This document shows, one piece after another, positions 3,641-20,506 of a DNA stretch of 20,727 bases. A program made the translations under genes and the position numbers. Origin of the DNA: a virus. Position 1 is the first letter of the stretch. Each line of letters starts with the position of its first letter. The stretch covers positions 1 to 20,727 of IMG/VR virus record IMGVR_UViG_3300022752_000469, one strand, 5' to 3'. A model generated the notes under the pieces. That model did no database searches. It had not been told where the DNA came from and saw only the letters and a program-made list of their open reading frames with translations.

Positions 3641-5530
3641 TTATTCTCGTATTTGAGATTCATCTAACAGTGAAGAATCTTCTTTTTTAATAGACAACTT
3701 TTTGTCTAAAGACTCTAACAATGATTTATTTTTTAATTTAGTTTCTAAGGCTAGTGGGGATCCTCCTTTAAAACTGTTTTTTATAGATGCATCTTCACCT
3801 GTAGCATCACCTTTTTTCATACCCATGCTTCCTAATCTGTCTTTTCCTAAAGCATTTTGTTGAGTACCCATAGTTGATGATTTTTCGGTTGGTCTTCCTA
3901 ATATTTCATCTTTATCGTATCCGTCAGGTACTCCCATATTGTTTCTTCCTGCCCCGTATAAAGCAGCTAAGTCATGAGGTGTACCATATGATTTGCCAGA
4001 TTCTAATGGGTCGTTTCCTTCATTTTCAATTTGTTTAAACCTAAAGATTCGTTTTTGGTCTTCAACAATTAAATCTCTGTATTCATCGTATTGGTCTTCA
4101 CTTAAGTGGAAAATGTTATCATAAATCCAATCTGTAGGTAATAATTTACCGTCAACAATGTCTTTTGCTAATGATACTTTTTCTCTCATTAACGCTATTC
4201 TTTCTTGATCATAAATGATTGAAGGAGTAGTTAATGATAATTCAAAATTGGTTAATGCTTCGTTTCTATAACCTTGAGTATACAAATGTACTAATGCAAT
4301 TTTGTATAATTCTGAAAGTATAATGCGTTGTAGTCTATCAATTGTACGAGCAAAACGAATGTCTTCTGCTGCTAATGTTGCTTTACCGGTTAAGTCTTTT
4401 TCATAACCCATAAATGCTTTAGGAACTTTTAAAGCAGCAAATAATTTATCCCTTAAGTAAGTAACGTCTTCAATTGCTGTATAATCTAAACCTTTTGTAG
4501 GTTCAATTTTAGTTGTTGTATCGTTTCCTCTAACTGGAATGTAAAAGTCTTCTAATGAATTTTGTAAATTATACTTTAAATTATATTCACCAGTTTGTGG
4601 GTCGATGAATGGTGTTCTTTTCATCTGTGAAATTGTCTTTTGCATAAAGTTTTCAACTTCATTAGGAGGAATAGAACCTACATTTATGTAAAATATTCTT
4701 TTTTCAGGGGCACGAACAATACGATGAATCAGCATAGCATCTTCCATCAAAATGTATTGTTTAAACAATTTACGTGCTGGTTCTAAGTATGAACGACCAT
4801 AAGGAAGATAATTAGTATCAGCTACTAGTCTAAAATGAGCCATTTCATAATTATCAAAATAGATATTTTTATCATTTTTGTTAGGACTATATGTTCCTTT
4901 ACCTGTCACACCATAAAAACCTGTAGAACCACCTGAAAAACCATCTGGTGAGAAAGCAAATCTTACTTCAGCTGGGTTGGCAGGGTCATAATTTTCTTCT
5001 CTCATGATGTGGTAAGCCATGTAAGGGATAACATTGTATACTCCAAATTTTTCAGCAATTTCTAATTTTAAAAAGAAATCACCATACTTACACATTTGTC
5101 TAATCCATGACCACAAATTAAACTCAATGTTTAACACATCATAGAACAAATTATAAAGTATTTTTTGTGTGTCTTCGTTGCTGCTTTTGATTTGAAGTAC
5201 TTCTCCCATGTCATTTTTAAGAGTACATTCATCAGCTATAATGTCTAAAGCAGAGGCTACAATAGCATCTGTATCCATTGCATCGTAATCTGAGTATACT
5301 TGAGTACGAAGGTATCTCCAGTTAAGATTTAATTGGGCTCCAAATAAAGATGTACTGTTGCTTGAATAGATTCGGTTGTATCTGTCAACTAAAGCATTGG
5401 TTTGAAATTCTCCACTTTTTTGAATGCTATTCACATCCATTACTTTTAACTGATTACCACCAGCATTGCGGATTATAACATCAGTTGAGAATAATTTTCT
5501 TAACCTTGTAAAGATACTTGTATCAGCCAT
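3641..5530 (-). CDS. 20: Portal vertex protein, T4 gp20-like
   Basis: This 629-residue protein forms the dodecameric ring at the unique head vertex through which DNA is packaged and ejected and on which the prohead is nucleated. Hallmarks of T4-type portals are present: an early DTDAIVASALDIIADE helix, a WSWIRQMCKYGDFFLKLEI block, the APEKRIFYINVG segment, and the KVPKAFMGYEKDLTGKATLAAE region just before the tunnel helix. It is about 100 residues longer than T4 gp20 (524). The extra length is largely a Gly/Lys/Ser-rich tail after residue 500. It lies directly downstream of the terminase, without the tail sheath and tube genes that separate 17 from 20 in T4. The start is ATG at 5530, preceded by a variant of the recurrent motif. 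Confidence 0.95.
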   Translation of the reverse strand: MADTSIFTRLRKLFSTDVIIRNAGGNQLKVMDVNSIQKSGEFQTNALVDRYNRIYSSNSTSLFGAQLNLNWRYLRTQVYSDYDAMDTDAIVASALDIIADECTLKNDMGEVLQIKSSNEDTQKILYNLFYDVLNIEFNLWSWIRQMCKYGDFFLKLEIAEKFGVYNVIPYMAYHIMREENYDPANPAEVRFAFSPDGFSGGSTGFYGVTGKGTYSPNKNDKNIYFDNYEMAHFRLVADTNYLPYGRSYLEPARKLFKQYILMEDAMLIHRIVRAPEKRIFYINVGSIPPNEVENFMQKTISQMKRTPFIDPQTGEYNLKYNLQNSLEDFYIPVRGNDTTTKIEPTKGLDYTAIEDVTYLRDKLFAALKVPKAFMGYEKDLTGKATLAAEDIRFARTIDRLQRIILSELYKIALVHLYTQGYRNEALTNFELSLTTPSIIYDQERIALMREKVSLAKDIVDGKLLPTDWIYDNIFHLSEDQYDEYRDLIVEDQKRIFRFKQIENEGNDPLESGKSYGTPHDLAALYGAGRNNMGVPDGYDKDEILGRPTEKSSTMGTQQNALGKDRLGSMGMKKGDATGEDASIKNSFKGGSPLALETKLKNKSLLESLDKKLSIKKEDSSLLDESQIRE

Positions 5531-5548
5531 TATAAATTGTATTATTTA

Positions 5549-5560
5549 CCATAAATATTA
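5549..5560 (-). promoter_or_regulatory. Recurrent boundary motif, variant TAATATTTATGG, copy 2
   Basis: The minus-strand string TAATATTTATGG overlaps the terminase stop codon (its TAA) and ends 18 bases before the portal ATG. The same 12-mer, with the same stop overlap and the same 18-base spacing, precedes the gene at 7168-7953. That repeat makes chance unlikely. Confidence 0.4.
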
Positions 5561-7129
5561 TAGTAACCAACTAATATCCTCATTCCTTCCATTAATATTC
5601 ATTTGGTAAGGATTTGCTTGACCATTAGTTGTATAGTTACCTTGAGGGTTTTGTCTAACTGTTGCTATGTTTTTTAAAGCAGCTCGGGTTAAGTCTAGGT
5701 TTTGGGTTTTAAATTTTAAAGCTGTATCACGAACATACATTCCAATTGCAAAACTCATAACCAAATCATCATTATAACCAGATTGTGCTTCAGGTCTACC
5801 ATTTTTCCAAATAAACACTTTCATTTCTTCAAATAAACGACGAGACTGTATGTTTACACTTTTGTCTCCTATGTATTCTCTGAATTTGTTTATGACTAAT
5901 GGTCTTGTTCTCATAGACATTGTAAAACCAGGTACCATTCTTGATGGGTCATCTGTTCTTTCTAAGTATGATTCAGCGTTTAATGCTTCAGTTTTTGGAG
6001 AATAGTATAAATTTCTGTATCCTCTTTCTATAATTGCATCAAGAGTTGACCAGCCTATGTTAGCGTTTTCAACAACTAACAATGCATCATTATACTCTGT
6101 TGCAATGCTTACTAACAAATAACCAAATTCTTTTGGTGAAAGTTGACTTCTGTATTCAGCAACTTGTGTATTTGTTTCAACGTCTATTACGTGAAATGTT
6201 GAAAAGTCTTTTCCATCCCCACGAGCAACGTCAGCAACAACCATATAGTTTCTTGTATAATCGGGTAATTCCCATATCCATAAGTTATGATCAATTCCAC
6301 GTTTTTCCAAGGGATCCTTAATAGACGTTGCTAAAATAAAATCTAATTGTTCATTGTAGAACACAGTATCACCTGAAGTATTAAAGTCACAGTCACATTC
6401 TTGTGCTGCTAATCTTGGGTCTCCTAATAATTCGTCTTGTTTTTTTCTCCAACTTTCATCACGTTCAGGGTGAACATACCAAGGCAATTTGATTGGTAAA
6501 AAGTCATTGTCTTGTGCTTCTGCTCTTACCCATGTTTGATGAAACCAATTACCAGTACCAAATGGAGTTGATAATATAATGGCTCCACCACCAGTTGCTA
6601 AGGTTTGTTGAGCAGAAGCCCATATTTCACCAATTCCGTCAATGAAGGCAGCCTCGTCTATTATTAGGAGTGATACTGCTTCTGATCGACCCGCATCACC
6701 TGCTGCTGAAACTGCTTTGATTTGAGAACCATTATTAAGTCGAAGTGTTAGTTTATTGTTTTCATCTGCAGGTACTTTTAACCAAGAAGGTAAATTTTCA
6801 AACATGAATTTTACCTTTGTAACCATGTTTTTAGCAGTTTCTTGTTTAGTAGCAATGCAAAGGATATTTTTATCCTTTTGAAACAACATTAACCATAATG
6901 AATAACCAGCAGTTAAGGTTGAAATTCCTAATTGTCTGGATTTGAGTACTATGTTATATGGATTGTCTCTCCATAAACGTAATACTTTTTCTTGGAATGG
7001 GTAAAGATTGAATATAATTCTACCACGAGTTGGGTGTTGGATGTGGCAGTATTTTTTCATAAAGTGCGCCGGATCTTTTGAACACTTTACATACTCATCT
7101 CGTATTATTTGTTTTAAGTCTTGAGACAT
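5558..7129 (-). CDS. 17: Terminase large subunit, T4 gp17-like
   Basis: This 523-residue motor packages DNA into the prohead through the portal and cuts the concatemer. The N-terminal ATPase shows a Walker A variant KSRQLGIST (63-71), Walker B LLIIDEA (154-160) with catalytic Glu159, and the coupling motif STPFGTGNWF (from 187). The C-terminal RNase H-like nuclease shows its three acidic positions: Asp300 (VVADVARGDGKDF), Glu354 (LLVVENANIG) and Asp454/455 (GYNDDLVMSFAIG). Length is slightly below T4 gp17 (610). No small terminase lies immediately upstream. The start is ATG at 7129 with AAAGGG 10 bases upstream, one of few SD-like sites in the window, which falls inside a small hairpin. Confidence 0.96.
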   Translation of the reverse strand: MSQDLKQIIRDEYVKCSKDPAHFMKKYCHIQHPTRGRIIFNLYPFQEKVLRLWRDNPYNIVLKSRQLGISTLTAGYSLWLMLFQKDKNILCIATKQETAKNMVTKVKFMFENLPSWLKVPADENNKLTLRLNNGSQIKAVSAAGDAGRSEAVSLLIIDEAAFIDGIGEIWASAQQTLATGGGAIILSTPFGTGNWFHQTWVRAEAQDNDFLPIKLPWYVHPERDESWRKKQDELLGDPRLAAQECDCDFNTSGDTVFYNEQLDFILATSIKDPLEKRGIDHNLWIWELPDYTRNYMVVADVARGDGKDFSTFHVIDVETNTQVAEYRSQLSPKEFGYLLVSIATEYNDALLVVENANIGWSTLDAIIERGYRNLYYSPKTEALNAESYLERTDDPSRMVPGFTMSMRTRPLVINKFREYIGDKSVNIQSRRLFEEMKVFIWKNGRPEAQSGYNDDLVMSFAIGMYVRDTALKFKTQNLDLTRAALKNIATVRQNPQGNYTTNGQANPYQMNINGRNEDISWLL

Positions 7130-7167: not shown

Positions 7168-7953
7168 TTAATCAGCTCTTAAATAAATTTTTGGATCATC
7201 TTGTGAACCATCAGCTGGATCAATAGCGTCAAGAGAGACGGGTTTTCCTTTATACATAAATGCTTTATCAGGTTGTGATAAAAGCATATTTCTATATTTA
7301 GTGCTATTCATTTTGTCTGAGTCTAGGGGTTTTCCATTTAAAGTTATAGTCTCAGCACTGTATATATCAACTTTAATTTCTTTTGCTTCTTTTAAAATTT
7401 TTTGAATTTCTTCTTTAATGATTTGTTGCAATTGTGATTTTTTCATAGTTTTGGTTTTTAAATTATTTTCTTTAAGAGTTTTCTCTTTTTCTTTAAGAAT
7501 TTTATCTAATGATTGTATTTTAGATGTTAGGTCTTTTAATTCATCTAACAACTTTGCTTTTTCTTTACCTTCGGCTTTCTTATATTTTTCATTAACATTT
7601 TTACGATCTATAACTAATTTAGCTATAGCATCTGTTATAGTAGCTATACTAGCATTTTTTTTCAAATCTGATTTTGATGGCTTAGCGTTAGCTATTTTAG
7701 CATCTTTTTTATCATCTTCATCTTCTTTACCATAAGTATCTTCTACGTCTTCGTCTGATTCAGCTACTTTTCCAGTTAATGTCACTGATTGTCCAGAGGT
7801 ATTAGCTTGTTGTAATGCTGAGGTTACCGCAGCTTGTGGTACTCCTTTTTGTCTAGCCGCATTTTTTACATCCATAGCGTTAGATCCGGGAGTAATAGTT
7901 AATATCTCCGTAATAGTATCTTCTATTTGTTTTCTTAATTCAGATAGTTTCAT
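7168..7953 (-). CDS. Leader-bearing protein that looks like a fusion of two small genes
   Basis: This 261-residue protein has no function I recognise. The first half has a type A leader (MKLSELRKQIEDTITEIL, with an I-T-E site at 14-16), a short helical region (20-55), an acidic stretch (65-85) and a Lys/Glu-rich coiled coil (about 115-162). At residue 170 a second complete leader starts with its own methionine (MKKSQLQQIIKEEIQKILKE), ending in L-K-E followed by Ala190, and a separate 71-residue domain follows. The DNA before Met170 (AAAAACCAAAACTATG) resembles the untranslated leaders of other genes here, for example AAAAAACCAACATCATG before 15325. This suggests two genes joined by loss of a stop, or an internal start. 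Cleavage at Glu189 would release the C-terminal domain. The start is ATG at 7953. Confidence 0.75.
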   Translation of the reverse strand: MKLSELRKQIEDTITEILTITPGSNAMDVKNAARQKGVPQAAVTSALQQANTSGQSVTLTGKVAESDEDVEDTYGKEDEDDKKDAKIANAKPSKSDLKKNASIATITDAIAKLVIDRKNVNEKYKKAEGKEKAKLLDELKDLTSKIQSLDKILKEKEKTLKENNLKTKTMKKSQLQQIIKEEIQKILKEAKEIKVDIYSAETITLNGKPLDSDKMNSTKYRNMLLSQPDKAFMYKGKPVSLDAIDPADGSQDDPKIYLRAD

Positions 7954-8568: not shown

Positions 8569-9048
8569 TTAGAATTCATCATAATCAGTCTTCCAACCAA
8601 ACTCATCATCTTCATCATCTTCATCATTATTTCTACCATATAGTTCATTTAATACAACTAATACTTTATCTACCGCGTTTTTTAGATTAGGATTATTAGA
8701 AGCTATTTGTTCTAATCGAGGTATTACTTCTTCATCAAAAAGATCTTCTGGGTAGTTTGTAATTTCATTTATTTTGTCATCTATTTCTTTAATAGTAGAT
8801 GCTAGTTCTTCTACTGTTCTTACTTTAGGGTATGGTTTAAGTGATTTCAAATATGCTGCTACTTCTCTTTTGTGGGTGTCATCAAAGAAACCAGCGACAT
8901 ATTCAGCATCATGACTGTCTATATATAACTCTATAATACGCTGACATTCGTTGGGAGAAGGAGTTTGAGTCTTATTTAATTTTTCTTGGTATTGACCTTC
9001 AGTAATAATACCAGCCATTTTTTGCATTTTAAGGAACTCTTTGTTCAT
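8569..9048 (-). CDS. Acidic protein with type B leader, candidate internal head protein
   Basis: This 159-residue protein has no known function. It begins with the type B leader MNKEFLKMQKMAGIITE followed by Gly18. The I-T-E/G junction is a close match to the T4 prohead-protease site. After cleavage the mature protein would be about 142 residues, helical, and end in a very acidic tail (NNDEDDEDDEFGWKTDYDEF). A leader, a protease site and a compact charged body resemble the logic of T4 internal proteins, though the sequence is not related to them. The start is ATG at 9048. There is no SD; an A-rich leader and one motif copy lie upstream. A terminator follows the gene. Confidence 0.75.
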   Translation of the reverse strand: MNKEFLKMQKMAGIITEGQYQEKLNKTQTPSPNECQRIIELYIDSHDAEYVAGFFDDTHKREVAAYLKSLKPYPKVRTVEELASTIKEIDDKINEITNYPEDLFDEEVIPRLEQIASNNPNLKNAVDKVLVVLNELYGRNNDEDDEDDEFGWKTDYDEF

Positions 9049-9079
9049 TGTCTTTTATTTTTTAAATTAGTATATTTTA

Positions 9080-9089
9080 TTATAAATAT
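9080..9089 (-). promoter_or_regulatory. Recurrent boundary motif ATATTTATAA, copy 4
   Basis: Exact copy in the 51-bp gap before the acidic leader protein, ending 31 bases before its ATG. A run of nine T residues precedes it on the minus strand just after the upstream stop codon, without a convincing hairpin. Confidence 0.4.
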
Positions 9090-9099
9090 CAAAAAAAAA

Positions 9100-9357
9100 C
9101 TAAGATCGTGATCCTTTACCTACACTACTCTTAAACCAAGGTAACCCAATTCCATCACGTTTTGCTTTATGATGACTATCTTTGTCATGTTGAAAACCAT
9201 TAATAAAATACTCTTCTTTACCATCTGGGTGGATTACGGCTGGACCATCCCAGTTGTGTAATTTTCCATCTTTCATGTAACGAATTGTACCGTCTGTTGA
9301 TGTGTACTTTTTAGTTTCTAGTGTTGGGTCTAGTTGATACTTTTTTTCTTCTTCCAT
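9100..9357 (-). CDS. Small MORN-like repeat protein
   Basis: This 85-residue protein has two repeat-like units of the pattern DG-x-x-x-Y-x-x-(D/N)G-K-x-H: YMKDGKLHNWDGPAVIHPDG and the following EEYFINGFQHDKDSHH. This is the MORN-variant type common in phage and bacterial proteins, with conserved Gly, His and the DGPAVI core. The repeats probably form a small beta sheet; the role in phages is unknown. I chose ATG at 9357 because it lies 8 bases after the stop of the upstream endonuclease gene. A longer reading frame to 9381 would need a TTG start inside that gene. No leader or protease site is seen. Confidence 0.7.
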   Translation of the reverse strand: MEEEKKYQLDPTLETKKYTSTDGTIRYMKDGKLHNWDGPAVIHPDGKEEYFINGFQHDKDSHHKAKRDGIGLPWFKSSVGKGSRS

Positions 9358-9365
9358 ATGTTTTA

Positions 9366-9974
9366 TTATATATATTTCCAAATATAACCATAAGCGGTTT
9401 TTTGCCTACCTGAGGCGCAATCTGCTATTTGATTACCTGATTTATTTAGACATCTACCTGCTTCTTGTGCTGACTGGTATTCATTAAGTAGATTACCTTG
9501 AAGATCATATTGGAGTATTGGTTTATGGTGACTTAAATAATTTTTAGGTTTTCCTCTAAGGGCATCCCCTATTTTATTAGCCCATAATATATTTCTACCT
9601 TTGTTTGCTTTACTAATATTTTGCTTCCATTCTTTACTTCGAGGTCCTAAACCTTTACCTTTTCTATTTTCACTTTGACGTTGTTTTACTTCATCAGTAT
9701 ATGCCCAAGTACCTCCACCTTTAGAATATTTAGTTTGATTAATTATTTTGTACCCTAATTTTTTATATTCTTCAATAAGAGTATGTTCATATAGATATGC
9801 GGTTTGTTCATCATCAAAATACTTAATAATTTCCCAAAAGCATTCAACTTTAGAAGTAATATTTTTCCATCCTTTATTTGATTTTTTATGACCTGCTCTA
9901 TTACCTGTTCCTTTTCCTACATAAAAAGGTTTATTAGTATCTTTTCTAATCCAATGATATACATAATATTTCAT
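9366..9974 (-). CDS. GIY-YIG homing endonuclease with NUMOD3/NUMOD1-like DNA-binding modules
   Basis: This 202-residue protein has an N-terminal GIY-YIG nuclease domain. VYHWIRKDTNKPFYVGKGTG holds the two signature strands, with Arg26, Glu63 (LYEHTLIEEY) and Asn79 as likely catalytic or core residues. From about 95 to 126 are NUMOD3-type motifs (RQSENRKGKG, KQNISKANKG). The C-terminus (about 150-200, PILQYDLQGNLLNEYQSAQE onward) resembles the NUMOD1 DNA-binding helix-turn-helix. Such free-standing, Seg-like enzymes cut phage genomes lacking them and spread by repair. ATG at 9974 is preferred; a GTG at 9989 would add five residues encoded by the recurrent motif. It lies directly behind the FAD oxidoreductase gene. 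Confidence 0.9.
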   Translation of the reverse strand: MKYYVYHWIRKDTNKPFYVGKGTGNRAGHKKSNKGWKNITSKVECFWEIIKYFDDEQTAYLYEHTLIEEYKKLGYKIINQTKYSKGGGTWAYTDEVKQRQSENRKGKGLGPRSKEWKQNISKANKGRNILWANKIGDALRGKPKNYLSHHKPILQYDLQGNLLNEYQSAQEAGRCLNKSGNQIADCASGRQKTAYGYIWKYI

Positions 9975-9976
9975 AA

Positions 9977-9986
9977 TTATAAATAT
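9977..9986 (-). promoter_or_regulatory. Recurrent boundary motif ATATTTATAA, copy 5
   Basis: Exact copy ending only 2 bases before the preferred ATG of the GIY-YIG gene at 9974. At this spacing it cannot act as a normal -10 promoter for that start. This copy therefore argues either for another role or for displacement of its original gene by endonuclease insertion. Confidence 0.35.
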
Positions 9987-10003
9987 CACCAGAAATTAAA
10001 TAC

Positions 10004-11311
10004 TTACATTTTTTTTAAAATACCTTCAGCAATGTAAATACCTTGACTGCCTGCTACTGTTATACCTCTAGCTGATAAAGCGTCTCCGGCAAAATGAATA
10101 TTGTTGTATGTTGTAAGACTTAAATCATCATAGTTAACAAGAGGCTCTGCAGAGACATATTTTACTTCAGGAATATACATACCCCAATCATCACCAAATT
10201 CAAATACTTCATTCATTTGGTCGATAAAATTAAGAATATAATCGGCATATTCACTAAATGCGTCTTTAAACCAGCTTAACTCAACGATTTGATAACTATC
10301 GACTGTATTATTTTCTGATGTTAAACTTGGTTTTCGAGTTAAATTAGGTGAATAATATAAACCAGATTTTTTAGCTACGGGTAAATCAAATTGACACTTC
10401 TTAACTATTTCTCTACTCCATTCAAATGGATTTTCAATACCTTTAATTTCCATTAGGATACCAAAGTTGGTCATATCGTTTTTAAATTCTTCACCTTTTT
10501 TAGCATGACCATTGTAACTAATGTCACCATATGTTTCCTCTACTGCGACGTAAGCTGCGTTATTATTAGTACAAAATGATCTTAACGATACATTATCAAA
10601 CTTTTGGTATAGTTTAAAATCATAACTGATATCAATTAGTTTTTGAAAGTATTTTTGTGGTGCCTCGTAACGGACTCCAATTTGTACTGATTTTGGTTCT
10701 GTAGGTAGTTGGTATTGGTTTGATAATGATTGAGCAAAGTCAATACCACTTTTACCTACAGCAAATATTAAAGAATCATATTGTAATGTAGTATTATGAG
10801 TATAAACTTTATTATTATTAAAATCAATGTCCTCTACTTCTGTTTCCCATTCAAATCTAACACCTTTATCCACTAAATATTGATACCATGCTTTAGCAAT
10901 CTCGTGAAGATAATTTGAACCAATATGCCATACAGGAAATAAACGTAAACCAAAATATGGTTTAATAAATTCAGGTTCTGATTGTGGGTCAGAGCAAAAT
11001 ATTTCTTCTGGTTTAGGATGGAAACGTCTAAAGTTATTAATGACTTGATCCATCAATTCCATTGCTTTCTCTTCACCACAATACTTTGATAATACACCTC
11101 CAATTGCAGTGTGATATGTTAATTTACCATCACTCCAACCACCAGCACCTAACATACCTGTCATTACTTCCTCAGGTAAACGATTGTGTGGATCATTTCC
11201 TTTATCAATAATAGTGATTAACTCACCTGGGTAGCCATTATCTACTAATTTTGTCGCGGCATTAATGCCTGCTACACCTGCTCCTACAATTACTATTTTT
11301 TTATTTTTCAT
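10004..11311 (-). CDS. FAD-dependent oxidoreductase (COG2509-like dehydrogenase)
   Basis: This 435-residue flavoprotein has an N-terminal Rossmann dinucleotide-binding motif (IVIVGAGVAGINAA, 6-19; acidic residue Asp36 ending the second strand). A GGWSDGKLT block (57-65) and SVQIGVRYEAP, followed by SLRSFCTNNN, resemble the COG2509 FAD-dependent dehydrogenases. The C-terminal second half of the FAD site is FAGDALSARGITVAGSQGIY (from about 406). The substrate is unknown. It has no leader, signal peptide or protease site, so it is probably a cytosolic auxiliary metabolic enzyme made in the infected cell. It lies between a terminator and a GIY-YIG gene, and appears to have its own promoter. The start is ATG at 11311. 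The flavoprotein fold is certain, the subfamily likely. Confidence 0.88.
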   Translation of the reverse strand: MKNKKIVIVGAGVAGINAATKLVDNGYPGELITIIDKGNDPHNRLPEEVMTGMLGAGGWSDGKLTYHTAIGGVLSKYCGEEKAMELMDQVINNFRRFHPKPEEIFCSDPQSEPEFIKPYFGLRLFPVWHIGSNYLHEIAKAWYQYLVDKGVRFEWETEVEDIDFNNNKVYTHNTTLQYDSLIFAVGKSGIDFAQSLSNQYQLPTEPKSVQIGVRYEAPQKYFQKLIDISYDFKLYQKFDNVSLRSFCTNNNAAYVAVEETYGDISYNGHAKKGEEFKNDMTNFGILMEIKGIENPFEWSREIVKKCQFDLPVAKKSGLYYSPNLTRKPSLTSENNTVDSYQIVELSWFKDAFSEYADYILNFIDQMNEVFEFGDDWGMYIPEVKYVSAEPLVNYDDLSLTTYNNIHFAGDALSARGITVAGSQGIYIAEGILKKM

Positions 11312-11315
11312 ATTC

Positions 11316-11346
11316 TAAAGATAATAAATTTTATTTAAAAAACAAA
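11316..11346 (-). promoter_or_regulatory. Possible Bacteroidota-type promoter for the FAD oxidoreductase
   Basis: On the minus strand TTTG (11346-11343), a 19-base spacer and TATCTTTA (11323-11316) match the Bacteroidota sigma consensus TTTG-N19/21-TAnnTTTG at all but the last position. Transcription would start almost at the ATG (11311), giving a nearly leaderless mRNA. A second TTTG lies 4 bases further upstream, and the region is AT-rich, so chance is possible. Confidence 0.35.
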
Positions 11347-11377
11347 CAAAAAAGTGGCACCTTTTTAGGAGTGCCAC
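11341..11377 (-). terminator. Rho-independent terminator ending block 1
   Basis: On the minus strand GTGGCAC and GTGCCAC form a perfect 7-bp stem (11377-11354) around a 10-base loop, followed by TTTTTTGTTTGTT. It separates the leader-protein block upstream from the FAD oxidoreductase gene. Confidence 0.88.
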
Positions 11378-11391
11378 AGCTACCATATTTT

Positions 11392-11426
11392 TGTCTCTGT
11401 TTAGAGCGACCGGCTATGAATCGGTC
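11392..11426 (+). other. tRNA-like fragment (D-stem half and anticodon arm)
   Basis: On the plus strand, opposite to all genes, TTTAGAGC is followed by G and then a 5-bp stem ACCGG/TCGGT (one G-T pair) closing a 7-base loop CTATGAA, with U33 and A37/A38 as in tRNAs and a would-be anticodon ATG. No T-arm (GGTTCGAATCC type) follows, no acceptor stem is visible, and the D-loop is too short. It could be a decayed tRNA or simply two adjacent hairpins (11395-11406 and 11408-11426) in the 3' region of the minus-strand transcript. Confidence 0.3.
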
Positions 11427-11433
11427 TATATGT

Positions 11434-11520
11434 TTATTTTAATATTTTATTATTAATTAGTTGACTAAGTCTCCCACCATTTAGATTGAATTTATTTTCA
11501 AATTCTTTTCTAGTACCTTA
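11434..11520 (-). pseudogene. Remnant of a homing-endonuclease C-terminal DNA-binding module
   Basis: Between the coiled-coil gene and the terminator, one minus-strand frame reads 27 residues, including RKEFENKFNLNGGRLSQLIN, between a TAA at 11520-11518 and a TAA at 11436-11434. The pattern (T/R)-K-E-F-x-x-K-F-N-L-x-x-G-x-L-S-x-L-I-N-x-K is typical of the helix-turn-helix repeats at the C-terminus of phage HNH and GIY-YIG endonucleases, where it usually continues into K-G-W. There is no start codon and no nuclease domain. I read it as the tail of a deleted endonuclease gene. Confidence 0.5.
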
Positions 11521-11522
11521 TT

Positions 11523-12173
11523 TTATTTTATTGGGAATGTTGATTTTAGTTTTTTTAAATGAGATATTAAAGCATCATACATTCCACTTTCGTCATTTTT
11601 ATATTTTGATTTAATATCATCTATAGCTTTACTATAATCAAATTTAGCTTCTATTTCATCGTCACCATATTGATCATATATTTTTTCTTCAATATCACCT
11701 ATTTTACTCAAAATTGTTTCTATTTTACTTTTATTTTCATTAATAATACCTGCAAGTTTTTGCATACGAATAAAAGATTCGTTTAATGCTTCTTCTTGTG
11801 TATTGTCAGGCATGTTCATTTCAGCTGTTACATCAGCTTCATCAATAGGAGCATCAGTAGTTACTTCTTTTTCAGGATTTGCTTTTTTATCCTTTTTAGC
11901 TTGCATTTTAGCTTTTTGAGCAGCGTATTTTTTCTTAGCTTTCTCTAAAATTTTAATTTCGGCTTGAATATTTTTTACTTTAGTTTCATCAACCATTTCT
12001 TTAAGATCATCATTTTCATTAATCTTATTTAGTCTTTCTTGACGTGATTGGATTGCTTCTTCACATTTAGTGATACTAGCATCTACAGCTGCTTCATTAG
12101 CTGCTTGTTCAATTTCTCTAATATATTCGTTGATAGATTCTCTTATAAGAGTACGTAATTTTTCTACTTGCAT
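11523..12173 (-). CDS. Coiled-coil protein carrying both leader types
   Basis: This 216-residue, strongly helical protein has no known function. It starts with a type A leader (MQVEKLRTLIRESINEYIRE, I-R-E at 18-20). A long Lys/Glu/Ala-rich coiled coil spans about 21-97, followed by an acidic linker (100-128). At 130-147 comes a type B leader sequence, LNESFIRMQKLAGIINEN, in which the usual initiating Met is replaced by Leu. The I-N-E site (Glu146) lies where type B leaders are expected to be cut. The last 70 residues form a separate helical domain. It looks like two leader-bearing genes fused end to end, or a polyprotein cut by the prohead protease. The start is ATG at 12173 with an A-rich leader and no SD. 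Confidence 0.72.
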   Translation of the reverse strand: MQVEKLRTLIRESINEYIREIEQAANEAAVDASITKCEEAIQSRQERLNKINENDDLKEMVDETKVKNIQAEIKILEKAKKKYAAQKAKMQAKKDKKANPEKEVTTDAPIDEADVTAEMNMPDNTQEEALNESFIRMQKLAGIINENKSKIETILSKIGDIEEKIYDQYGDDEIEAKFDYSKAIDDIKSKYKNDESGMYDALISHLKKLKSTFPIK

Positions 12174-12194
12174 TTTATTTTGGTTTTTATTTGT

Positions 12195-12204
12195 TTATAA
12201 ATAT
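12195..12204 (-). promoter_or_regulatory. Recurrent boundary motif ATATTTATAA, copy 6
   Basis: Exact copy in the 34-bp gap between the two leader-protein genes, ending 21 bases before the ATG at 12173. The stretch that follows, AAAAACCAAAATAAAATG, has counterparts upstream of other leader genes. Confidence 0.4.
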
Positions 12205-12207
12205 GTG

Positions 12208-12654
12208 TTATTTAGATAAGGCATAAATTCCACCATTTATTCCTACTGCAAATTTGTTTGGATGATTCTTAATATAATCCTTAGCGTAATTTATCATCAT
12301 TTTTTTATATGTATCTGAGTCAGCATTGGAATTACCTTTCATTTCACCTGTTTTATCACTAATGTCTGATCCTAGTTTAAAAAGATCATCATCATTCATT
12401 TTAGTAACTTCGTTACTAAGAACATTATTGTAATATTCAACTTGTTTAGCTTTATCAGCTTTTGCTTGTTGATCCATTTGATATACTTTACCTATTCCTC
12501 CTAAAGTTGATAATGTAATTAAACCACCTAACAACCAGTTTTTCCACCCTTCATCTAAAGTTTCATCATGAATTGCCTCAATAAACATTCTATATTCACC
12601 TTCAGTTATTACTCCGGCAATTTTTTGCATTTTTTTAATTTCAAGTATATTCAT
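12208..12654 (-). CDS. Type B leader protein with one membrane segment
   Basis: This 148-residue protein has no known function. It starts with the type B leader MNILEIKKMQKIAGVITE, followed by Gly19. The I-T-E/G junction fits the prohead-protease site. A single hydrophobic helix follows at about 39-57 (WLLGGLITLSTLGGIGKVY), then a soluble, Asp/Asn/Lys-rich domain of about 85 residues. A protein packaged in the head with a membrane-spanning segment could act at the host inner membrane on DNA entry, but that is inference. The leader at the extreme N-terminus is not a secretion signal: it is not hydrophobic and has no signal-peptidase site. The start is ATG at 12654, 12 bases after a motif copy. 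Confidence 0.74.
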   Translation of the reverse strand: MNILEIKKMQKIAGVITEGEYRMFIEAIHDETLDEGWKNWLLGGLITLSTLGGIGKVYQMDQQAKADKAKQVEYYNNVLSNEVTKMNDDDLFKLGSDISDKTGEMKGNSNADSDTYKKMMINYAKDYIKNHPNKFAVGINGGIYALSK

Positions 12655-12666
12655 TTTTAATTTTGT

Positions 12667-12676
12667 TTATAAATAT
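12667..12676 (-). promoter_or_regulatory. Recurrent boundary motif ATATTTATAA, copy 7
   Basis: Exact copy in the 33-bp gap between the two membrane-segment leader proteins, ending 12 bases before the ATG at 12654. Spacing is identical to copy 8. Confidence 0.4.
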
Positions 12677-12687
12677 GTTGTTTTTTA

Positions 12688-13470
12688 TTAAATTGCTAAA
12701 CCAATAGAATTAACTATTTCACCTATACTTTTTCCTCCTTTAACTCCATCTGCTATAGTCATAGCTACTGGGGCTACTCCTGTAAGATGTCCTAAATGGG
12801 AAAGAATACCAACCCCAGCTATTCCAGTCATCGTAATAGCATATAGTATATTAGCTAATTTTTCTCTAAATTCTTTATTTTTTAATTTTTTATTTCCTGT
12901 TATAAATCCAACCCATTTTAATAAGGTTCTAATAGGCCAAGTATAAGCATGATGTAACCCATGAGCTTTTTTTTTCATCCATTGCCCAAAATCAGAACCC
13001 CACATATCATCTCTTTGTTTTTTTAATTTATTTAAAAGTTCTCTTTCTCTCATTTCACTTTTAGCATCTTTTTTATCTAAATTCTTTATTAATTCTTCTT
13101 TTTCTTTAATTTTTTCATTAAATTTTTTTAATTGTGCTATTTCAGCTTCATTTTTTCCAGTGTTACGAGAAACCCAATTTGATACACCTCCTATAGCATC
13201 CATAGCTAAAGGAATTAATCCAGCTATTGTAACAGCAGTTAAAACAGCTGATTCATCAACTTTATCCTCAGGGGTGGAAGTTTCTTGTTTAGCTAATTGT
13301 TTAATTTTTTCAACTGGTTGGGCAGTAGCTTTAGATATGATGTTTAATATATTGTTAGGGACTTGATCAATAGTTTCAGCTTCTTCTCCTTCAAATAAAG
13401 TATTAGTTTTATACTCACTTTCAGTAATAATACCAGCTAATTGTTGCATTCTTAAAAATTCTTTATTCAT
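12688..13470 (-). CDS. Type B leader protein with hydrophobic segments, candidate internal membrane-active protein
   Basis: This 260-residue protein has no known function. The type B leader MNKEFLRMQQLAGIITE (cut expected after Glu17, before Ser18) is followed by a second possible site L-F-E/G at 25-28. Hydrophobic stretches lie at about 75-95 (VLTAVTIAGLIPLAMDAIGG), around the WPIRTLLKWVGFITG region, and at about 210-240 (ITMTGIAGVGILSHLGHLTG). A charged Lys/Glu coiled coil separates the first two. The layout suggests a protein able to insert in membranes after packaging and cleavage. It starts 2 bases after the stop of the upstream gene, with no SD. Confidence 0.74.
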   Translation of the reverse strand: MNKEFLRMQQLAGIITESEYKTNTLFEGEEAETIDQVPNNILNIISKATAQPVEKIKQLAKQETSTPEDKVDESAVLTAVTIAGLIPLAMDAIGGVSNWVSRNTGKNEAEIAQLKKFNEKIKEKEELIKNLDKKDAKSEMRERELLNKLKKQRDDMWGSDFGQWMKKKAHGLHHAYTWPIRTLLKWVGFITGNKKLKNKEFREKLANILYAITMTGIAGVGILSHLGHLTGVAPVAMTIADGVKGGKSIGEIVNSIGLAI

Positions 13471-13472
13471 AG

Positions 13473-15056
13473 TTATACTGTTTTCTTTTCAACTTTTTGG
13501 TTTAATTTGAAATTTCTTACACCTTTAACAGCTCTAATGTCTTGTAATAATTGTTGTAAATCTTCATCTTTAAATCCAGAAGGATATGGGTGTGGATCAA
13601 CTTTAATTTTTATAATAGTACCGTAATTTGGGTTATTAGTAGCATACACATTTGGGTTTATGTCTTTAGAAGACACAATTGTTACACCAGGTAAAGAACG
13701 AATGTCTGAAAGAATATCTTTTTGAGGACGTTCTCTAGTATCTGTGTATAGAATACCTTCCATGTTGTATTGGGTTGATTCTTCTTTTAATATTTTTAAA
13801 GTTAAGGTTCCGTCACCTTTAATTAAACGGTGCCATTCACCTTTAGGTATTCTAATGGGTTGATTTATAGAAACTGGTAACTGGTTTTCAAGTTGAATTT
13901 TCCAATTTGTTTTACCTACAATTTCTATTATACGGTTTTCTTTATCACGATGCCACTTTAATTCGATTGGGTCAATGTTTTCGTTGAATTCACGAAGAAT
14001 GTATTTGTCGGTTGTTTCAAGGTCTTTGTATGGACGTTTTTTTTCATTTAATCCTAAATCAGACAAATCTACATCGTCTATATTATCTTCATCATTATTA
14101 GAAAAAGAACTCATAGCTCTTTCAGCATCTATAGTTTGCAAATACACTTGTATGTCTTCTAATTCATTTTCAATCCAAGCAATTTGGTCTTCACTTAAAG
14201 GTCTATCACCTACAACATTACTTATAAATGAAAAAAATTCATCTGGTTCCATTTGAAGAATAGCTGTATAAAAAACAACAAGTGTTCTTACATCAACATC
14301 TGGGGAAGTAAATGCTTTATATATGGTTTTTAATTTATTAAATATTATTGGACCATAACGAATATCTTCAGGTTCATATTCTAATCTATCAACTCTATCA
14401 ACTGTAGCTTGTGCTTCTTCATCACTACCTTTTAATCCAGTTTGTGCTAAAATACTCCAATAACCTTTTAAAATTTCATGGACCAACATTGGGAAACAAA
14501 TTGCTTCAGCAATGATTTTAGGACCTTCATTTTCAGTTACAATTTGAGATTTACCACCAGCTAAATTTTGGCCTGAAGCTATGGCAGCAAGCATCATGTT
14601 TATGGCTTGATCATCATTATATATGTCAAAAACTTGTTTCATTAATTCATTATACTTGTCATATAATGTTGAATTAATAGAACGTATTTGTTGAATAACA
14701 CTTTCTTTTTCAAATAAAGAATATAGTTCTTCAACTGACGCTCCTTGTACTAAAGCATTAGAGATGCGTCTTTGTTTTTCATATGGGTTATATTCTTCAA
14801 GAGTAACATTACTAACTATTCTAGCTTCTACATCAATATTATCCTCTACTAAAGTAGGATAATGATCTTTAACTATATCAATAGCTAATTGTGATAATTG
14901 AGATTTATATGGGGCTTCAATTGAAACTACAAGACTTAATAATTCTTGAGAAGATCTCATCATTTGCATAAGACTTTTTCCTCTAATTTTTTCAGAGGAT
15001 TTAGCCTTTAACTTAGCTATGATTTCAGGATCAAATATGTCTTGATACTTAGGCAT
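13473..15056 (-). CDS. Multi-domain phage protein with embedded cupin-like domain
   Basis: This 527-residue protein has no named function that I recognise. The N-terminal 320 residues are helical and resemble conserved proteins of marine T4-like phages (MMRSSQELLSLVVSIEAPYK; RRISNALVQGAS; AICFPMLVHEILKGYW at 185-200). An acidic linker (322-332) leads to an 83-residue domain at 342-424 with paired motifs LKWHRDKENR and IPKGEWHRLIKGDG, probably a small beta barrel of cupin type. It is a paralogue of the separate 85-residue gene at 17943-18200. The last 90 residues (TDTRERPQKDILSDIRSLPG; VDPHPYPSGFKDEDL) look like a ferredoxin-like alpha/beta domain. No type A or B leader is present. Its ATG overlaps the upstream stop as TAATG. 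Confidence 0.72.
   Translation of the reverse strand: MPKYQDIFDPEIIAKLKAKSSEKIRGKSLMQMMRSSQELLSLVVSIEAPYKSQLSQLAIDIVKDHYPTLVEDNIDVEARIVSNVTLEEYNPYEKQRRISNALVQGASVEELYSLFEKESVIQQIRSINSTLYDKYNELMKQVFDIYNDDQAINMMLAAIASGQNLAGGKSQIVTENEGPKIIAEAICFPMLVHEILKGYWSILAQTGLKGSDEEAQATVDRVDRLEYEPEDIRYGPIIFNKLKTIYKAFTSPDVDVRTLVVFYTAILQMEPDEFFSFISNVVGDRPLSEDQIAWIENELEDIQVYLQTIDAERAMSSFSNNDEDNIDDVDLSDLGLNEKKRPYKDLETTDKYILREFNENIDPIELKWHRDKENRIIEIVGKTNWKIQLENQLPVSINQPIRIPKGEWHRLIKGDGTLTLKILKEESTQYNMEGILYTDTRERPQKDILSDIRSLPGVTIVSSKDINPNVYATNNPNYGTIIKIKVDPHPYPSGFKDEDLQQLLQDIRAVKGVRNFKLNQKVEKKTV
13785..14033 (-). repeat. Duplicated cupin-like domain, embedded copy
   Basis: These bases encode residues 342-424 of the 527-residue protein. 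They match the gene at 17943-18200 over the full domain in protein (PYKDLE-TDKYI-REF-ENIDPIELKWHRD through IPKGEWH and the final K-I-x-K). They are also clearly similar in DNA, for example in the stretch ending at the RPYKDL codons. This is a domain-sized duplication some 4 kb apart. Confidence 0.8.
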
Positions 15057-15325
15057 TACTTTTTATTTTTAAGCATTTTGCTATACCTATTTCCTATTTT
15101 TTCAGCTATTTTTTCAGCTGTTTTTTCAGCTTTTGGTTTTTCTTTTATACCAGGTCCAGGTCTTTTTGTTCGAGAAGGTGTAGTTGTTGGTTGAGAAGGT
15201 GTAGTTGTTGGTTTTACTGGTGCTTCCTTTTTACGTGTTGGTGTTTCCTCTTCACGTATTGGTGCTTCAGCTAATACTTTTTCAATTTCTTCTCTGATGA
15301 TTTGTTTTAGTTCGTTAATTTTCAT
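15056..15325 (-). CDS. Short basic Pro/Thr/Lys-rich protein with type A leader
   Basis: This 89-residue protein has the clearest type A leader: MKINELKQIIREEIEKVLAE, cut expected after Glu20 before Ala21 (L-A-E/A). The mature part would be about 69 residues, unstructured and strongly basic. It has two imperfect copies of a TTTPSxPTTTPS-type repeat (about 40-51) and a helical AEKTAEKIAEKIG repeat (67-78). A small, basic, heat-stable-looking protein with a removable targeting peptide is what T4 IPI-IPIII look like in outline, though no sequence relation is claimed. It overlaps the upstream gene (ATGA) and the downstream gene (TAATG), so the three are probably translated together. Confidence 0.74.
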   Translation of the reverse strand: MKINELKQIIREEIEKVLAEAPIREEETPTRKKEAPVKPTTTPSQPTTTPSRTKRPGPGIKEKPKAEKTAEKIAEKIGNRYSKMLKNKK

Positions 15326-17943
15326 GATGTTGGTTTTTTATAAATATTAGTTAATTTTTGTCTCAATTCATTCATTGATTCAGGATCTGCTTCAGCATGC
15401 AACGCTAACATTACTTTTGCATTTTCGTTTATGTTACGTGTTCTTAGTTGTGTTACAAGATCATCGGGACTTGGTATTCTAAAGGAAGAATTTGTAGTAA
15501 CTATGTAATGTTGATTACCAGGTTGAAAAACTGCTGATCCTATGTATGCTCCACTTCTTAAACGAATAATATAAAGTTTAGAATTACCTGATTCAATTGT
15601 ATTTGAAACTTGTCCTCCATATTGTCTTAATAAATTGTTTCTACGAGATGCACCTCTATCACCTGCAAATCTACCAAGGATTTGTCCTGAAGATATTACA
15701 TTTCGTACATTTTGGGGTAAGGTATTAAAGCCTGCTGTTAATCCAAATTGTTCAATCATAGTTACAACATCTGGATTTGCCGCGGCGGCGGCTGGAGCTT
15801 GTCTAGGTGCTCCACCACCAGCTGGTCTTCCTCTTCTTCTAAGAGGGGCTAATTCTCTTTCTCCAGCACCAGGTGGTGTTGTTGCAGCATTTGCTTGTCC
15901 TCCAATGTATTGAGCAGCAGCACGTGGAGGAAAATTATAATTGATTAATCTACCTGAAGTGTTGGATATAAATTTACTGTTTCTAGGGTTAATTCGGTTT
16001 AATAAAATGTATTTGTCTTCTACTACTACAGCCATCCATCTTTCACCTAATGGTGGATTAGCGGCTATTATGTTTTGTTTATAACTTCGATTATATTGAC
16101 TATTTATAGCACCTATAATTTCATCACCTTGATATGCCCATCCTTTTGTTCTTGCATATTCAAAATATTCTCTAAGAACTTCAAGACTACTAGCAAAATT
16201 AGTTAAACCCGGTGATTCTCTCCAATTTGTTCTATTAAGATTATAATGAAATTGAGCTCTAAATGATGTTGATAATTCCCTATTATCTATTAATAATATT
16301 TCTTCATTTTCATCATCTAACATAACTACATAATCTATATTTCTTACAGTTGTTATTCTATTGTTAATTGGAATATTTTTTAATAGATTAACAAATGTAG
16401 TTTTGTCTATAGTGTTAGGAATACCACTTCCAAATAATTGTAAAATGTTGTTTTGAATACCTTCATTTTCTTCTGATTCTTCAGAATTAAGGACTCTTTG
16501 AACTTCTTCACTATCAAAAGGTATAGGTGTTATAGAATCATCTTTAATTTTATAAGAATTAAAACTATTAGAATCAACTAATATTTGTCCATCTTCTGTG
16601 TCTTTTACTATTATAGCCGAGTTTGGGTCTTCTTTAGCTTTTTCTATAACCTTATTGATAATTAATTTATCAATAGCTTCTTGAGATGCTAATTTTAAAA
16701 GATACCTAAAAGGAATAGTGTCTATTTCGGGATAGTCTGCTAAAAATTTAGAAGTACGTTTATTAAGTTTAATATTTGGATAATCAGCATCTTCTGTGTA
16801 TACTCCTACTTTTAAATCGTCGTCTAAAGTTAATAAAATTATAGCTTCACCATTTTTAGTAACATATATTCTTTCGTTGTTACTAAGATTCCATTTATTT
16901 AATTTAACTAATAATTTTTTAATGTCAAATGAAAATGTTTGTTTATCTAAATATTTTAAAGACACATTTGTTCTCATGTTAGCCATGATAGATCTTCTAT
17001 CTTGGTTAGAGAATTTATCTAAATATTTTAATAAAACTTCATCTTCAATAATATCATTGTTTAAAGCAATAAATTCAGCTATTTGTGGATAATTTGGAAG
17101 GTAAGTACTTACAAATTCATTATCACTAATATCTGAAAAAAATTCTGATTGGTTTTTTCTGGCTACTAGATATTGTTTTTTCATTTCAAATGAGAATTGA
17201 GTCCATTCTCTATAAGTAGCAGCTTTGTTTTTATATGTTTGAGTTATTTTCTCATTACTAGTTAAAGGGATATATCTTAAAACATTACTAAGATTAGGCA
17301 CTTCACTAAGCCAAGGAACCTCAGATACTAATTTATTAAAAGACATAGCATTAGACTCATATGGGCTATTCTGTCTATTAGTATAAACGTACCTTTTATT
17401 TTCATCAGATGTATCTCTAACCTGTATAGCAACAAAACTTAATTTATCAGTATTAGGTAAATTAGTATTTTTAGCAAGATAAAATGTAGGAAAGCCTCTA
17501 TCAGCATCGTACCTGTAATTACCATAAGAGCCTCTAGTTATGCACCATCTTTCACCTTGACCAAAATTAATACAGTTGCCTTCTTTACTACCATTATAAA
17601 TTACAATAGTATTATTATCATTATTATAAACAACGTCAGGAGTAATATCTGCTTGTTCAGGCATGTCTGCTCCAGCAGATGAAGTAACTAATTGTATTAA
17701 TTTAGATAAAGAGTATTTATGTAAGTCCTTTTCAGTAACTTTAGATGAATTTTTTAACTGGTCAAAACGTTGAATGTATGTTTTTAATTGTTCATCTGTA
17801 ATATTAATGTTTAAATCATTAGCATCTACTTTAAATTTATCAAAAAACTTTTGTCTGTTTCTATCAAGCTTTATTTCATCTTCATTTAAAGGATAACCCC
17901 AATTATAAACAACGTATGCTATAAACTTATGTATATTTTTCAC
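15322..17943 (-). CDS. Large phage protein with WC-motif domain and separate C-terminal domain
   Basis: This 873-residue protein is of unknown function. After a helical N-terminus comes a domain at about 103-200 with GQGERWCITRGSYGNYRYD (Trp133, Cys134) and a following FPTFYLAKN strand. The same W-C-[IT]-T, F/Y-R-Y, T-[FL]-Y arrangement occurs in the neighbouring LRR protein. I recall similar sequences in uncultured marine phages but no characterised activity. The middle (200-680) is helical to mixed. A GC-rich Ala/Pro/Gly/Arg linker (about 682-722) joins a C-terminal domain of about 150 residues containing a GQILGRFAGDRGASRRNN stretch. The start is GTG at 17943, overlapping the upstream TAG as TAGTG. 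No type A or B leader is visible. Confidence 0.72.
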   Translation of the reverse strand: MKNIHKFIAYVVYNWGYPLNEDEIKLDRNRQKFFDKFKVDANDLNINITDEQLKTYIQRFDQLKNSSKVTEKDLHKYSLSKLIQLVTSSAGADMPEQADITPDVVYNNDNNTIVIYNGSKEGNCINFGQGERWCITRGSYGNYRYDADRGFPTFYLAKNTNLPNTDKLSFVAIQVRDTSDENKRYVYTNRQNSPYESNAMSFNKLVSEVPWLSEVPNLSNVLRYIPLTSNEKITQTYKNKAATYREWTQFSFEMKKQYLVARKNQSEFFSDISDNEFVSTYLPNYPQIAEFIALNNDIIEDEVLLKYLDKFSNQDRRSIMANMRTNVSLKYLDKQTFSFDIKKLLVKLNKWNLSNNERIYVTKNGEAIILLTLDDDLKVGVYTEDADYPNIKLNKRTSKFLADYPEIDTIPFRYLLKLASQEAIDKLIINKVIEKAKEDPNSAIIVKDTEDGQILVDSNSFNSYKIKDDSITPIPFDSEEVQRVLNSEESEENEGIQNNILQLFGSGIPNTIDKTTFVNLLKNIPINNRITTVRNIDYVVMLDDENEEILLIDNRELSTSFRAQFHYNLNRTNWRESPGLTNFASSLEVLREYFEYARTKGWAYQGDEIIGAINSQYNRSYKQNIIAANPPLGERWMAVVVEDKYILLNRINPRNSKFISNTSGRLINYNFPPRAAAQYIGGQANAATTPPGAGERELAPLRRRGRPAGGGAPRQAPAAAAANPDVVTMIEQFGLTAGFNTLPQNVRNVISSGQILGRFAGDRGASRRNNLLRQYGGQVSNTIESGNSKLYIIRLRSGAYIGSAVFQPGNQHYIVTTNSSFRIPSPDDLVTQLRTRNINENAKVMLALHAEADPESMNELRQKLTNIYKKPTS
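15338..15347 (-). promoter_or_regulatory. Recurrent boundary motif ATATTTATAA, copy 8, inside a coding end
   Basis: Exact copy ending 12 bases before the ATG at 15325. Here it lies within the last codons of the upstream 873-residue gene, encoding the N-I-Y-K of its C-terminus. Retention of the motif at the usual distance from the next start, even where it must be translated, supports a function tied to the downstream gene. Confidence 0.4.
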
Positions 17944-18200
17944 TACTTATTAATTTTAAGAATTAAAGTACCATTTCCTTTAATAACTATATGCCATTCA
18001 CCTTTTGGTATAAATATGGGTTGATTTAAAGAAGTTGGTAGTTGATTTTCAAGTTGTACCATCCAATCTGTTTCTCCTATTATTTCTATTAAACGATCTT
18101 CTCTATCACGATGCCATTTTAGTTCAATAGGATCTATATTTTCGCTAAATTCACGAATAATATATTTATCTGTTATCTCAAGATCTTTATAAGGGAGCAT
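17943..18200 (-). CDS. Stand-alone cupin-like domain protein
   Basis: This 85-residue protein consists of only the domain found at residues 342-424 of the 527-residue protein. Its motifs include ENIDPIELKWHRDREDR (two of the paired Trp-His-Arg positions), a predicted strand pair around the DWMVQLENQLP motif, and IPKGEWHIVIKGNGTLILKI. The IPKGEWH core followed by a Gly turn resembles the second motif of small cupins, in which His residues bind metal; whether metal is bound here is not known. It starts at ATG 18200, overlapping the upstream stop (TAATG), and ends overlapping the next start (TAGTG). It is therefore coupled to both WC-domain genes. Confidence 0.72.
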   Translation of the reverse strand: MLPYKDLEITDKYIIREFSENIDPIELKWHRDREDRLIEIIGETDWMVQLENQLPTSLNQPIFIPKGEWHIVIKGNGTLILKINK

Positions 18201-19879: not shown

Positions 19880-20506
19880 TTATACATATTGAGCCCTATA
19901 TTGCTTATTCTTAATAGTTTGAGCTTTCCCAATAAGTTGACATCTTACTGTTTCTGGGTTAATTTGAAGATCAAGAGCTAAATCATGATAGCTAGGATAT
20001 GTTTGGATGTATTCACCTGATGTTTTATATAAAGCTACAGGGTTACCTTTTCCTTTATTAGGACTTATTCTGCCTTTATGAGCTTTAGATACATTAGGTT
20101 TAGGGCCATCGGGTTTACCTTTTTTAGATGTTGTTGAACCTGTTTTGGCTTTAGATATTTTTTCGCAAGTTTCTTTTGAGAATTTACGTCCTGTTAGTTT
20201 TTCACTAACTGTCTTTTTAGTTTCTTCTTTATGAAGATTATTTCCTCTAGCATCATTAGTCATATTATAAAACATTGAATTTCCAGCTGCGTTAAATTTT
20301 GTCAAATAATATGTTTCCATAACTCGAGCATCTCCCTCACCTTCCCATAATATTTCTCTAGTGAAATTTTCTTTACCATGTTTTTTTAAAGCATTTTTTA
20401 ATGCTTTTCCACTACCATAATAGTTTTCATCAACTTGAGTCTTTCTAGAAGATCCAATATATTTTTTATTGTTGATGACATTAGTTATAAGATAAACATA
20501 AGCCAT
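19880..20506 (-). CDS. GIY-YIG homing endonuclease with NUMOD3-like repeats
   Basis: This 208-residue protein has a compact N-terminal GIY-YIG domain: YVYLITNVINNKKYIGSSRK gives both signature strands, with Arg21, Glu64 (RVMETYYLTKF) and Asn81 in the expected places. NUMOD3-type motifs follow (SEKLTGRKFSKETCEKISKA, then VSKAHKGRISPNKGKG at about 139-154). A C-terminal helix-turn-helix-like module (155-208) should read DNA sequence. It differs from the endonuclease at 9366-9974 in all but the domain plan, so the two are separate arrivals. It is the only gene here with a strong Shine-Dalgarno sequence (GGAGGGA, 5 bases before ATG 20506), and it separates two small basic Cys-containing genes. 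Confidence 0.92.
   Translation of the reverse strand: MAYVYLITNVINNKKYIGSSRKTQVDENYYGSGKALKNALKKHGKENFTREILWEGEGDARVMETYYLTKFNAAGNSMFYNMTNDARGNNLHKEETKKTVSEKLTGRKFSKETCEKISKAKTGSTTSKKGKPDGPKPNVSKAHKGRISPNKGKGNPVALYKTSGEYIQTYPSYHDLALDLQINPETVRCQLIGKAQTIKNKQYRAQYV

Follow-up and report, generated by a model that had tools for sequence, protein, structure and literature searches.

A leader peptide on unrelated phage proteins matches the C-terminal tail of a gp22-type scaffold

Three otherwise unrelated proteins in a 20.7 kb stretch of viral DNA begin with the same short peptide. The stretch, which we call the window, is IMG/VR record IMGVR_UViG_3300022752_000469, positions 1-20,727, and its genes identify it as a fragment of a T4-type phage. 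Our main new result, from sequence comparison, is that the gp22-type scaffold protein encoded by phages of this kind has this same leader peptide as its extreme C-terminus. We therefore read the leader, with a probability of roughly 80%, as a capsid-targeting sequence that copies the tail by which the phage's own scaffold docks and that would be removed by the prohead protease. This near-identity suggests a route by which helper proteins could be packed into the head and then released. The evidence throughout is sequence and single-chain models, and it is from these that we infer cleavage, virion location and a docking receptor for the leader proteins.

The leader in the window

An earlier reading of the window, made from its letters without database searches, had picked out an N-terminus of 17-18 residues, ending I-T-E, in the proteins that start at 9048, 12654 and 13470. 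It is indeed common to all three, whose genes lie on the minus strand. When the proteins were compared by blastp, A and C matched at 71% over 21 residues (E 7e-8) and A and B at 67% over 18 (E 2e-5), and the similarity stopped at the leader. The parts, together with a fourth protein, D, are as follows (all on the minus strand; the leader is termed type B).

8569-9048 (-): open reading frame (ORF) of protein A
8998-9048 (-): type B leader of protein A, MNKEFLKMQKMAGIITE then G, predicted cut after E17 (blastp, profile, codon comparison)
8569-8997 (-): body of protein A, acidic and helical, with relatives solely in L130 and the 96% identical L340
12208-12654 (-): ORF of protein B
12601-12654 (-): type B leader of protein B, MNILEIKKMQKIAGVITE then G (profile, leader comparison)
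12208-12600 (-): body of protein B, with a single hydrophobic helix and five relatives
12688-13470 (-): ORF of protein C
13420-13470 (-): type B leader of protein C, MNKEFLRMQQLAGIITE then S (blastp, profile, codon comparison)
12688-13419 (-): body of protein C, hydrophobic in several segments (pattern search)
11523-12173 (-): protein D, with a type A N-terminus (see below), an acidic helical part, an internal copy of the peptide and a C-terminal part of about 70 residues (pattern, profile)
11736-11786 (-): the internal copy in protein D, LNESFIRMQKLAGIINE, with [LI]xE on either side (profile)

The layout of protein D is repeated in a relative, the 163 kb record G011.

That nothing is shared past the leader, as the sequence-only reading also held, was borne out: with leaders removed, blastp gave no convincing pair among the bodies of A, B and C (best E 0.01 over 54 residues, in a four-sequence database), so the whole-length homology that would have told against a removable targeting sequence did not appear. 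A pattern scan found one near-identical contig for the body of A, and a pattern search of the viral collection found no relative for that of C. The five relatives of the protein B body reduce to three distinct ones, two of which carry a different leader type; L341-L345 have a body of the kind at 12208-12654 under either MNKEFLHMQKLAGLITE or MENYLEIKKMQKIAGVITE, which suggests that within a genome leaders are swapped or made uniform. Nor are the leaders of A and C a recent DNA copy, because 7 of their 17 codons differ, 4 of those synonymously. Searches of PHROGs and Pfam with the leader proteins of the window gave nothing better than E 0.005. For protein B, an AlphaFold2 model (predicted local distance difference test score, pLDDT, 72), which had no significant PDB or viral fold match, places a short separate leader helix at residues 3-12, a break over the ITE boundary and then the body.

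Across 11 genomes or windows, which amount to about 970,000 positions in six frames, a profile of the 11-residue core matched at 43 sites, against 1 in shuffled sequence, and chance is therefore excluded as the source of the motif.

The scaffold tail

We scanned IMG/VR with two patterns, the first of them MQKLAGI and neither containing the cleavage-site E; each gave at least 120 matches. Among the matches listed, MQKLAGI mostly forms the last residues of a protein of 300-500 amino acids, the ORF directly upstream of the gp23-type capsid gene ends in the motif at 91 of 97 loci, and at five of the other six it ends in LAFG or a similar variant. The C-terminal consensus is PI[IVST]E-xxxxFxRMQKLAGII-stop, and the core that tail and leader have in common is F-x-[RK]-M-Q-K-L-A-G-[IL]. 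The tail is also present in loci that were found solely through the leader (G006, G007, G009, G013, G014, G027, G029 and G031, for example), where its variants include FARMRELAGLTKK, LNRWQILAGIKKI, IARMKKLAGL, VERFKKLAGL and FARMRELAFGKK.

The gene that ends in this tail lies between the gp21 protease and the gp23 capsid gene, as T4 gp22 does: after the S77 protease, where the contig reaches that far, and before the capsid gene. The same holds in Flavobacterium phage immuto and Microcystis phage Mel-JY01, the nearest cultured relatives of the window phage within the collection searched (60% and 53% identity, respectively, to its terminase). The product is acidic and helical. Its alignment to T4 gp22 by hhalign is weak, centred around LTESQKxKV (E 7e-4, 32 columns, probability 26%), and the immuto protein has no PHROG scaffold match. 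In immuto, which has two leaders as well as the tail, the scaffold is NC_055915.1 gp067 (125626-126867), ending in KEIISEVSEQVSRWQKLAGIIK; its annotation as a 'DNA polymerase phi-like protein' is probably a mistake. The two leader proteins of immuto are gp083 and gp230 (YP_010114600, YP_010114453), in which a cut after IITE would leave N-termini beginning S-Q-F-N and S-E-M-W; in the scaffold the predicted cut follows IISE, and the protease is gp070. The Mel-JY01 scaffold ends in KKILNESNNVVERMKKLAGIVK. The window's own scaffold and capsid genes fall outside it because it stops just beyond the protease. A relative at 96% (G053) runs on into the scaffold gene, cut off at its 3' end, and the start of that scaffold matches the scaffold start of G011, whose C-terminus is AFARMQQLAGLRK.

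An [LI]xE lies ahead of the scaffold tail, with E at -8 in 55 of 89 (among the matches listed). The site is N-terminal to the peptide in scaffolds and C-terminal to it in leaders, so that a single cut would part peptide from body in both. AlphaFold2 models of 35 scaffolds have a helical body, a disordered linker at 361-376 (pLDDT <50), the predicted cut site, E377, at the end of that linker, and an isolated helix at 380-388, which coincides exactly with the motif. Leaders are also closer to the tail encoded in the same genome than to tails from elsewhere (12 genomes; p 0.0015, or 0.011 without G009, where the resemblance is most striking). The tail is probably the older element, since it is the more widespread of the two and Mel-JY01 has the tail only.

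The leader beyond the window

The matches listed include at least 129 usable copies at N-termini. The bodies behind them form 82 clusters, of which 63 are singletons and others have 13, 7 and 4 members. Conservation is confined to the N-terminus, much as had been supposed for the window: among these matches, columns -9 to +9, counted from the M of MQ, each carry 1.5-4.8 bits of information, and the content falls to about zero a few residues after the E, from +14 on. An [LI]xE is found at +5 to +15 in 94% of cluster representatives, against 7% of control windows of equal size taken from those bodies, and the E stands at +9 in 61 of the 82. The boundary has the motif at which T4 gp21 is known from published work to cut, after L/I-x-E (PMC9026906), and is likely to be a gp21-type site. 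Of 25 contigs that measure 70 kb or more and have the genuine motif, 24 encode an S77 protease, and neither of two long contigs with a chance match does (among the matches listed). The window has its own:

151-762 (-): prohead protease, T4 gp21-type (Peptidase_S77, PF03420; Pfam, E 3e-30), the likely candidate for the enzyme that processes the leaders

In short, what one would look for in a capsid-targeting sequence is seen here: a short N-terminal peptide on unrelated bodies, ending at the prohead protease site L/I-x-E and encoded together with a gp21/S77 protease. The number of body clusters and the boundary site favour a removable targeting sequence over descent of whole genes, as the sequence-only reading had proposed. 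PHROGs and Pfam gave no convincing function for the bodies. The string MQKLAG had no match in the literature text that we searched, which omits most subscription literature, and a literature search found no virion proteomics of immuto.

The word leader, by contrast, fits only in part. It stands for the N-terminal copies; it fails as a statement that the peptide is N-terminal only, because internal and C-terminal copies exist, among them the fourth copy in the window, at 11736-11786, which had been overlooked. Internal copies usually have a cut site on both sides, and two large proteins, of 806 amino acids (L278, in G012) and 927 (L286, in G010), have the peptide at the N-terminus and again at the extreme C-terminus. 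Since it is also the scaffold C-terminus, the peptide is better described as a position-independent docking cassette than as a leader only.

Small leader proteins of about 60-75 amino acids, LNEEFLHMQKLAGLITEEEYK, were seen in contig 43 of G052 (L339:13773, minus strand) and in L188, L197 and L135. The one in G052 sits directly between the protease and the scaffold and is possibly a gp67/gp68-like core protein.

Proposed mechanism and its alternatives

During prohead assembly the peptide would bind the site that is normally taken by the scaffold tail, either on the inner face of the capsid shell or in the core, and unrelated cargo proteins would thereby be co-assembled into the core. The protease would then cut after the E, leaving mature cargo free inside the head, from where it could depart along with the DNA on ejection. 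Internal copies would dock in the same way and be cut on both sides. A broader proposal, on which we are evenly divided, is that throughout the clade a single docking cassette, usable at any position and taken from the scaffold C-terminus, serves as a general address label for the inside of the head, so that proteins gaining it at either end or internally are co-assembled as the scaffold is and the label is excised by the prohead protease. If any protein can gain the cassette, each genome would evolve its own changing set of injected cargo.

Several points weigh against targeting by a copy of the scaffold tail. The window is a fragment that does not include its own scaffold gene; S77 is missing from one 99 kb fragment; Mel-JY01 has the tail and no leader was found in it; and the test of own-genome resemblance, with 12 genomes, is small. 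Control windows inside scaffolds have an [LI]xE in 31% of cases, and the enrichment at the scaffold tail is for that reason weaker than at the leader. Finally, the motif is absent from the capsid propeptide. All 72 sampled capsid propeptides end in [VLI]xE, and the candidate idea that they carry the same motif was rejected, being not above shuffles; a motif-free propeptide fits the shell as receptor rather than as another ligand. Two other ideas were given up. Amphipathicity was dropped as an argument for the leader, its hydrophobic moments being not clearly above shuffles, and copying of its own gp22 tail (MNAYVQQLAKRL) by cyanophage P-HM2 was set aside, no copies having turned up elsewhere in the 98% of the genome scanned.

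The most serious competitor is a variant of our own reading with a different receptor, in which the peptide is a self-association element of the scaffold core and cargo sticks to the core instead of docking on the shell. T4 proteins with a capsid targeting sequence (CTS) co-purify with gp22 (PMC9026906), T4 reviews describe targeting into the core, and the tail helix is small with part of its surface hydrophobic. On the other side are the C-terminus of the P22 scaffold, which binds coat protein through a minimal capsid binding region (PMC9962691), and the disordered linker of the AlphaFold2 models, which tethers the tail away from the helical core. Neither is decisive, and we rate core self-association as the less probable choice. 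An improbable alternative is that the motif is an exosite, a recognition element that guides the prohead protease to the adjacent E while something else takes care of localisation. The motif always adjoins [LI]xE and co-occurs with S77 proteases, and an exosite would be position-independent too. However, the protease does not need the motif, because all the sampled capsid propeptides have [VLI]xE without it above shuffled background, and known gp21 substrates require little beyond L/I-x-E (PMC9026906).

We give very little credence to either of the remaining explanations. A host-directed signal (for secretion, degradation or a chaperone) would suit the N-terminal position in most cargo and the short hydrophobic stretch, but the peptide lacks a positively charged n-region plus hydrophobic core, the latter absent by inspection, and it recurs inside proteins and at C-termini, including that of the scaffold. 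Moreover, in 257 billion bases of prokaryote genomes a leader pattern matched a single contig, which belongs to a phage and encodes an S77 protease. Whole-gene descent, with fast-diverging bodies and an N-terminus that is merely their slowest part, could draw on the body clusters that do have several members. Against it stand the many clusters and singletons, the two leader types on homologous protein B bodies, the internal and C-terminal copies and the two large proteins with a copy at each end; neither body-only blastp of the window proteins nor clustering of the 129 bodies supported it.

Other recurrent elements and neighbouring genes

A second recurrent element, type A (MKxxELKQIIREEIxKVLxE), ends L-x-E and occurs in the window at 15056-15325, 11523-12173, 7168-7953 and 765-2246, all on the minus strand. 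It stands at N-termini and also internally (around residue 180 in 7168-7953). Similar copies are present in G007, G009, G010, G011, G012 and G001, and the same pattern found none in immuto or Mel-JY01. Type A bears no match to the scaffold tail and may act as a second targeting peptide.

The motif ATATTTAT lies shortly upstream of many window ORFs on the minus strand (20531, 15347, 12676, 12204, 9089, 7981, 5558, 3630 and others), mostly 20-30 bases before the ATG. It is strand-biased (10 versus 3 in the window, 31 versus 4 in immuto, 53 versus 11 in G011) and precedes 45% of leader genes against 18% of other ORFs. Its distribution makes it a candidate promoter element of the clade. A reversed-sequence control was uninformative, since the motif is near its own reversal.

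Other features of the window are these.

3641-5530 (-): portal protein, T4 gp20-type, head module context (PHROG and Pfam searches)
5558-7129 (-): terminase large subunit, context gene, closest to immuto
9366-9989 and 19880-20506 (both -): GIY-YIG homing endonuclease-like ORFs, by eye, one of them among the leader genes
13473-15056 (-): gene of a 527-residue protein
17943-18200 (-): ORF of 85 residues (YKDLEITDKYIIREFSENIDPIELKWHRD...) that repeats a segment of the 527-residue protein and is apparently a partial duplication of its gene

Significance

A targeting peptide that is visibly the scaffold's own tail offers a direct and testable mechanism of targeting. It also provides a sequence signature with which head-packaged, probably injected proteins, mostly unannotated, could be spotted in environmental phage genomes, and a short, naturally occurring tag with which to load cargo into capsids.

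Comparison with known systems

In T4 the leader of the internal proteins is MKTYQEFIAE. These proteins carry N-terminal propeptides of 10-19 residues, which send them to the core and are later removed (PMC9026906). The CTS of IPI, IPII and IPIII resembles our leader in being a short N-terminal propeptide on differing cargo that ends at an L/I-x-E site for gp21, and T4, too, encodes an S77 prohead protease (PMC9026906, PMC3012670). The leader described here appears to differ in sequence, occurs internally and C-terminally as well, and matches the scaffold tail; the window proteins that carry it are not filed with the T4 IPI-III sequence family. A 2023 review remarks that the mechanisms of localisation to the T4 core 'remain mysterious', the CTS not being shared with other core proteins (PMC9958956). 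The address-label proposal, if true, predicts that the T4 CTS imitates a scaffold or core contact.

T4 gp22 itself ends in ...NFVTE followed by AVEDKAAQGAEDIVSVYAKVASRF, and for the stretch beyond VTE the calculated mass is 2525 Da. This stretch occupies the same position as the scaffold tails here, and its mass is consistent with the 2.5 kDa gp22 fragment that mature T4 heads keep (table in PMC9026906). The similarity in sequence is merely suggestive, K-V-A-S in T4 against K-L-A-G here. We infer that the fragment is the C-terminal piece of gp22, in which case the tail stays in the head.

Cargo has been brought into P22 capsids by fusing it to the C-terminal capsid-binding region of the scaffold, with an optional protease site for release (PMC9962691). 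Those fusions are engineered; the one described here is apparently natural, with the peptide at the cargo N-terminus and a viral cleavage site built in. In phage P1, an N-terminal stretch of DarB (more than 9 and at most 30 residues) is enough to bring a reporter into phage heads (PMC9024508). P1 differs in that no separate scaffold has been identified in it. We know of no comparable scaffold-tail match there. By analogy, the leader would belong functionally with the capsid targeting sequences of T4 and P1.

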